DNA of 64,000 bases, taken from NCBI RefSeq assembly GCF_003431825.1, contig NZ_CP020083.1:3262501-3326500 (forward strand). The letters run 5' to 3'. The position numbers were made by a program, and so were the translations under genes. Origin of the DNA: Blastomonas fulva. GTDB lineage: Bacteria; Pseudomonadota; Alphaproteobacteria; Sphingomonadales; Sphingomonadaceae. A model generated the notes under the pieces. It was not told where the DNA came from. It did not search any database and saw only the letters and a program-made list of their open reading frames with translations. Below, piece by piece: positions 48,843-49,062 of this stretch (its first letter is position 1; the number at the start of each line of letters is the position of its first letter).

Positions 48843-49062
48843 CTTTACCCCCACATACCCTTGGAACAGGGCCCTGCATGAGTCCTCGGCGACCATCGGT
48901 CAAGGCCAAAACCCTAGGGATTCCGGGTGTTCAAATGGTTAACGCGGGGGTCTTTGTGCGGAACACAATGAGTCCAAATCCAGATGTTGAGTCTTGTTAA
49001 CCGGTCGGGACTCAACGCCTAGTGGTGTGACATCGAGGACTCGGCACGCAAAAAAAATTGCG
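48843..49062 (-). promoter_or_regulatory. ccrM upstream region with six GANTC sites
   Basis: 220 bases between rnhB and ccrM. GANTC occurs at 48880, 48919, 48970, 48989, 49009 and 49038, six sites in 163 bases where about 0.6 would be expected by chance. Two GTTAAC palindromes (48938-48943 and 48996-49001) are also present. CcrM methylates GANTC, and the Caulobacter ccrM promoter is methylation-sensitive, so this region probably lets CcrM (or GcrA) control its own synthesis. No -35/-10 could be named. Confidence 0.75.

Follow-up and report, generated by a model that had tools for sequence, protein, structure and literature searches.

In E. coli, clusters of Dam methylase sites that are sequestered by SeqA lie at oriC and at the dnaA promoter, and operators that are blocked by methylation are known from pap and agn43. 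For the methylase gene ccrM, the closest described system is that of Caulobacter, where autoregulation of ccrM by methylation is presumed. Both the control of the CcrM level and the readers of GANTC clusters have been studied mainly in that organism. Excerpts of the published work indicate that a GANTC between -10 and -35 accompanies timed activation (PMC4287350), that methylation 'most probably' affects ccrM itself (PMC3973325), and that one model lists CcrM as negative on its own promoter (PMC4219702). A further paper, in the excerpt cited here, counts GANTC upstream of ctrA, not of ccrM (PMC8116508).

The window analyzed here is a stretch of 64,000 nucleotides from Blastomonas fulva, and it carries a ccrM gene preceded by a dense array of GANTC sites. 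The genes that frame the array are the following.

47691..48842, minus strand: ccrM coding sequence, 383 aa, with the ATG at 48842 as the chosen start; the same-genus relative L002 begins at the matching Met
49063..49659, minus strand: rnhB (ribonuclease HII), the upstream neighbour of ccrM
46579..47787, minus strand: folP-like gene, after ccrM

Read along the minus strand, rnhB is followed by a 220-base gap, ccrM, and the folP-like gene. The product of ccrM is CcrM-like by its DNA methylase and RAMA domains, as the original prediction had it, and the array lies directly 5' of this gene, in the place of an alphaproteobacterial ccrM promoter. An alternative in-frame ATG at 48896 on the minus strand gives a 401-aa ccrM frame that overlaps the core promoter described below, and automatic annotation may pick that ATG. 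Of the genomes searched, 185 of 196 from the order and 122 of 143 from the class have a CcrM relative, the class figure including weak matches to other methylases.

By motif count, the gap between rnhB and ccrM holds six GANTC within 163 bp. A recount found each of the starts that had been reported, at 48880 (GAGTC), 48919 (GATTC), 48970 (GAGTC), 48989 (GAGTC), 49009 (GACTC), and 49038 (GACTC). The gap at 36216-36424 is free of the motif, as had also been said, with its neighbouring sites at 34250 and 37344 and none between, and the two GTTAAC sequences pointed out earlier were located at 48938-48943 and 48996-49001. One figure did not stand. The random expectation had been put at about 0.6 GANTC, which is too high because the motif is depleted: the window contains 82 copies, whereas dinucleotide shuffles average 281, and the frequency in a genome sample (2161 copies in 1.664 Mb) gives an expectation of 0.21 in 163 bp. 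Given this scarcity in the window, the local excess is therefore larger than was thought.

The genome sample consists of the window and 80 pieces of contig C1, each 20 kb long, i.e., 1.664 Mb or 40% of 4.12 Mb, with contig C2 and 58% of C1 lying outside it. A Poisson estimate puts the probability of six or more GANTC in 163 bp at about 1e-7, corresponding to about 0.003 such stretches per genome. Within a span of 220 bp, the cluster upstream of ccrM is the densest in the 1.664-Mb sample, the next being one cluster with five sites and eight with four; in the 40% of the genome examined, unrelated regions are without a comparable cluster. The composition of the sites is also unusual, with GAGTC or GACTC making up five of the six in the window versus 25% of GANTC in the sample (binomial 0.005). 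The second-densest cluster of the sample, five GANTC in 173 bp at about 887445-887617 of contig C1 (7445-7617 of stretch L182), has GAGTC or GACTC at four of its five sites and runs from within a 430-aa frame to where a 411-aa frame starts.

The cluster is also present at the ccrM loci of related sphingomonads. A set of 110 loci was used, made up of 30 (the window's own included) and the best 80 of at least 593, and 106 of the 110 upstream sequences are distinct. The 250 bp 5' of ccrM hold a mean of 6.3 GANTC (range 2-11) across these loci, a count that ignores shared ancestry and in which start codons were placed by rule, so that the window locus took the upstream ATG and contributed five sites instead of six. 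From the start codon onward, the figure is 0.34 GANTC per 250 bp. The preference for GAGTC and GACTC recurs, with 533 of 675 sites in the 106 distinct sequences. The mean is 6.1 in the 65 loci where rnhB adjoins ccrM, 6.5 in the 33 loci with an insert of at least 450 bases between the two genes, and 6.8 in the 12 loci with rnhB either undetected in the stretch or not upstream. These similar means with and without an adjoining rnhB indicate that the array belongs to ccrM and not to rnhB. Where rnhB and ccrM lie at least 450 bases apart, as in 33 of the 110 loci, the GANTC array remains at ccrM. Outside the family, the mean is 5.9 (range 4-9) in 20 loci from other families of the order and 3.9 (range 0-8) in 40 loci of the class outside the order, these 60 outgroup loci having been picked by hand among the matches listed.

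The array upstream of ccrM is real, conserved, and more structured than had been claimed. What was described as a single six-site array falls into two units, a core and a distal module distinct from it. The core comprises these features.

48898..48903, minus strand: TTGACC, the presumed -35 element, with TTGAC invariant in 106 aligned upstream sequences
48880..48884, minus strand: GANTC at +19 from TTGAC, touching the presumed -10
48875..48880, minus strand: CATGCA, the presumed -10 hexamer, at 17-base spacing and a poor match to TATAAT
48919..48923, minus strand: GANTC at -20 from TTGAC, from the motif count and the ladder described below

A GANTC thus falls within the -35 to -10 region of the window's ccrM promoter, with the -35 and the -10 themselves putative. 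At +18 to +20, an exact GANTC is found in 72 of 104 loci, one mismatch in 3, two in 4, and three in 25. Since 72 loci are exact against 3 with one mismatch, the core appears to be an exact methylation target or nothing. It is followed by A in all 72 of these loci, while the position at which the -10 should end in T has this base in only 34 of the 72, and another base in the window.

The core unit also extends well beyond the family. TTGAC-N14/15-GANTC occurs near the ccrM start in 26 of 40 class loci; by comparison, it starts from none of the 52 further TTGACs in these stretches, and shuffled sequences yield a mean of 0.06 loci. For the 20 loci of the order outside the family, the count is 13, versus none of 33 further TTGACs and 0.01 in shuffles. 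Loci without the core GANTC number 32 of 104 in the family, 7 of 20 in the other families of the order, and 14 of 40 in the rest of the class. A scan of the window for consensus promoters and terminators found nothing here. The core does not represent a genome-wide promoter class, as TTGAC-N14-GANTCA occurs only twice in 1.664 Mb and one of the two is ccrM.

The sites show a regular spacing when measured from TTGAC on the ccrM strand. Those of the window lie at +19, -20, -71, -90, -110, and -139, all near multiples of 10 bp, a regularity equalled by 71 of 20000 random placements. With TTGAC as the origin, 647 GANTC from 104 loci (L013 and L019 were dropped for want of CTTGAC, others as duplicates or too short) form a ladder of about 10 bp, close to one turn of the helix. 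Near TTGAC the sites gather at +19 (71), +8/9 (61), +6/7 (20), and -11/-10 (27), followed by -23 to -19 (36, with 17 at -20), -30 and -28 (18), -34 (5), and -56 (5). Further up they are found at -61/-60 (40), -71 (15), -80 to -78 (64), and -91 to -89 (37), and in the most distal part at -100 to -98 (67), -110/-109 (20), -129 to -126 (67), and -140/-139 (18). Positions used by fewer than four loci account for 76 of the 647 sites. The best period for the fifteen cluster centres is 9.8 bp, with 12 of 20000 random sets equally regular, and regularity within a single locus reaches p < 0.05 in 60 of the 94 loci that have four or more sites. Other families of the order favour -92/-91, -61, -53, -46, -39, -21/-20, -8/-7, +7/8, and +19, positions for which the TTGAC was chosen to favour GANTC placement (the core counts of 26/40 and 13/20 were made without that choice). 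The strict ladder is absent from these 20 order loci outside the family and, as the favoured positions differ, it is therefore a property of the Sphingomonadaceae.

The distal module is the second part of the array, and its sites were placed by motif count and alignment.

48956..49044, minus strand: distal module, 89 bp with four GANTC, defined as a conserved block by a sequence model
49038..49042, minus strand: module site 1, GANTC at -139
49009..49013, minus strand: module site 2, GANTC at -110
48989..48993, minus strand: module site 3, GANTC at -90
48970..48974, minus strand: module site 4, GANTC at -71
48980..49024, no strand assigned: inner imperfect dyad of the module, from the other-strand match of the module model

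The 89-base block was aligned from 74 sequences and the model uses sequence only. Sites 1 to 4 are exact in 94, 80, 88, and 69 of 106 loci, and their central base is nearly fixed, as G in 93 of 94 and 80 of 80 loci for sites 1 and 2 and as C in 88 of 88 and 65 of 69 loci for sites 3 and 4. The model matches 92 of 99 family genomes at E <=0.01. In a search of 21 genomes, all 13 family genomes match at E <=5e-8 and the 8 genomes of other families give no match below 0.18; with E up to 1, the same search has weak matches elsewhere in same-genus genomes at three places (E 0.12-0.44). Wherever the positions of both are known (32 of 32 genomes), the module is found immediately 5' of ccrM. A 33rd genome (G175) has ccrM and no match to the module, yet it keeps TTGAC with two GANTC after it, indicating that the core and the module are separable.

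Many genomes show a second, weaker match to the module at the same place on the opposite strand, as judged by eye from the matches listed, and the module is therefore an imperfect dyad. The dyad match has an E of 0.07 in the Blastomonas fulva genome and goes down to 6e-6 in relatives. The flank of site 3 is whole in 13 of 18 loci where the GANTC was lost versus 78 of 88 where it was kept, and GTTC is still present in 30 of the 37 loci that lost site 4. This retention of flanks after site loss suggests that a sequence-specific protein contacts the module beyond the methylase site. IHF was considered as a binder of the dyad, one arm of which resembles the IHF consensus; judged by inspection, the conserved spacer bases and the two-fold symmetry speak against it. 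A second promoter inside the module with the spacing of the core was also rejected, the distance from TTGAG to GACTC being 2-3 bases too long.

Candidate sites for other cell cycle regulators lie among the GANTC.

48938..48943, no strand assigned: GTTAAC, a CtrA-like half-site, at about -40 from TTGAC

Of the 104 loci, 56 have CtrA-like half-sites in the interval from -75 to -5 relative to TTGAC, 37 of them near -40, and such half-sites are scarcer where GANTC are more numerous (rho -0.44 over 104 loci, with shared ancestry ignored). Perfect DnaA boxes (TGTGGATAA) are present at 40 of the 104 loci; at 21 loci, e.g., L084, L089, and L043, the box sits at +28/+29, directly after the presumed ccrM -10. 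A perfect box within the module is found in 2 of 80 loci with site 2 versus 11 of 26 without it, again with shared ancestry ignored. An excerpt of earlier comparative work has DnaA sites predicted before ccrM mainly where CtrA sites are lacking (PMC2877005).

The anatomy of the region points to a methylation-sensing, autoregulatory ccrM promoter in which methylation by CcrM tunes the transcription of ccrM, a reading to which we give a probability of roughly 0.55. CcrM would methylate GANTC, each round of replication would restore the half-methylated state, and ccrM transcription would be tuned to match. The TTGAC...GANTCA unit, with its GANTC touching the -10, would be the main ccrM promoter, and methylation of the core GANTC could alter how RNA polymerase uses this promoter, GcrA or some other helper perhaps taking part. 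The distal module may serve as an operator to which a sequence-specific protein binds, with the GANTC around it adjusting that binding; an arrangement on the same side of the helix would allow copies to cooperate. In such a scheme the half-methylated promoter would fire after replication, CcrM would build up, and full methylation would damp the promoter, giving negative feedback. The sign of this last step and the protein that would act at the core and at the module are the least certain parts. The original prediction had proposed an autoregulatory switch with methylation-sensitive binding, and this is supported in part, fitting the anatomy in that many members of the class have a GANTC fixed relative to the presumed -10, a gcrA gene is present, and CtrA-like half-sites occur.

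A more specific role for the distal module can be put forward tentatively, with the odds against it. The module may be a dedicated methylation-counting operator at ccrM, nowhere else strong in the genomes searched, with CcrM or a partner binding the dyad when the phased GANTC carry methyl groups on neither strand or on one only, and leaving at full methylation. If true, ccrM would measure the activity of its own product, and the module would be the GANTC counterpart of SeqA-type clusters.

Among the alternatives, the one that fares best, itself doubtful, takes the GANTC as parts of ordinary protein-binding motifs, with a putative factor on the dyad, RNA polymerase on the core, and methylation incidental. 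The nearly fixed central base of the module sites goes beyond what CcrM specificity alone requires and is accommodated in this way, as are the flanks kept at sites 3 and 4 after the methylase site was lost. It is at odds with a core site that is either exact or gone, and with the accumulation upstream of ccrM of a motif that is scarce elsewhere in the genome.

Positive action is a further, rather unlikely alternative, in which GcrA and sigma-70 would read the methylated core sites and activate ccrM and the distal module would merely add to this. A gcrA gene was found in 21 of 21 genomes, those of Blastomonas fulva and 20 relatives, with a GcrA model that also matches one archaeal control genome. 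Published excerpts describe GcrA as binding methylated GANTC (PMC3667746) and as stimulating open complexes at methylated promoters (PMC7403470), and the core sites are placed as such sites are in Caulobacter (excerpt of PMC4287350). The extended GcrA motif, given as YGAKTCK in an excerpt of PMC7987155, tells against this alternative. It fits one of the six window sites, the one at +19 not being among them, and across the loci only 15 of 152 core sites agree with it (10 of 71 at +19, 5 of 81 from +6 to +9). Nor is it enriched in the array as a whole, with 164 of 647 sites versus 18 of 82 GANTC in the window. By this measure GcrA as the reader is unsupported. In the gcrA-like gene of the genus (C1 330811-331500 in Blastomonas fulva), a single frame of about 260-310 aa, the GcrA model matches two stretches that lie apart, which looks like the result of a lengthened linker.

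A structured RNA encoded by the region, either a leader or a small RNA, is very improbable. TTGAGTC...GACTCAA would be able to pair, but a consensus fold is absent in 74 sequences, pairing of the tested arm columns equals the expectation from independent columns, and an Rfam match is absent, so the region gives no sign of a conserved, covarying RNA structure. Chance or a general intergenic surplus of GANTC, a motif over-represented between genes in the class (excerpt of PMC3973325), can be set aside almost entirely as far as the density and conservation comparisons reach, this being the densest cluster in 1.664 Mb, with positions conserved in the family and a core conserved in the class.

Sites for its own product in front of ccrM may let the cell sense the methylation of its DNA and tune the enzyme. 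The class-wide core, present at 26 of 40 ccrM loci, offers a concrete site for asking whether methylation feedback on ccrM is ancient. The separable distal module, confined to one family as far as searched, offers a bait for a methylation reader. No description of the GANTC ladder, of the dyad module, or of a class-wide TTGAC-N14-GANTC core at ccrM was found in the open-licence literature, a search whose negative outcome is not proof of absence, with older ccrM promoter papers lying outside it.

The pap and agn43 operators resemble this locus in having a protein half-site beside methylase sites, as the module suggests, and differ in that the regulated gene here encodes the methylase and nothing points to phase variation. 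The Dam/SeqA clusters of E. coli share the grouping of methylase sites near a replication-linked promoter and the helical spacing, whereas here the motif is GANTC, not GATC, and the gene is that of the methylase itself. The GcrA- and methylation-dependent promoters of Caulobacter (ctrA P1, mipZ, and podJ) likewise have GANTC between -35 and -10, e.g., in ctrA P1 and podJ P2 (excerpt of PMC4287350); the ccrM region described here has more sites, one of which reaches the presumed -10, and its sites are not enriched for the extended GcrA motif. The Caulobacter crescentus ccrM promoter drives the same gene, is activated by CtrA, and is thought to be acted on by methylation (excerpts of PMC3667746, PMC3973325, and PMC4219702), whereas the phased array and the dyad module are specific to the family in sphingomonads.
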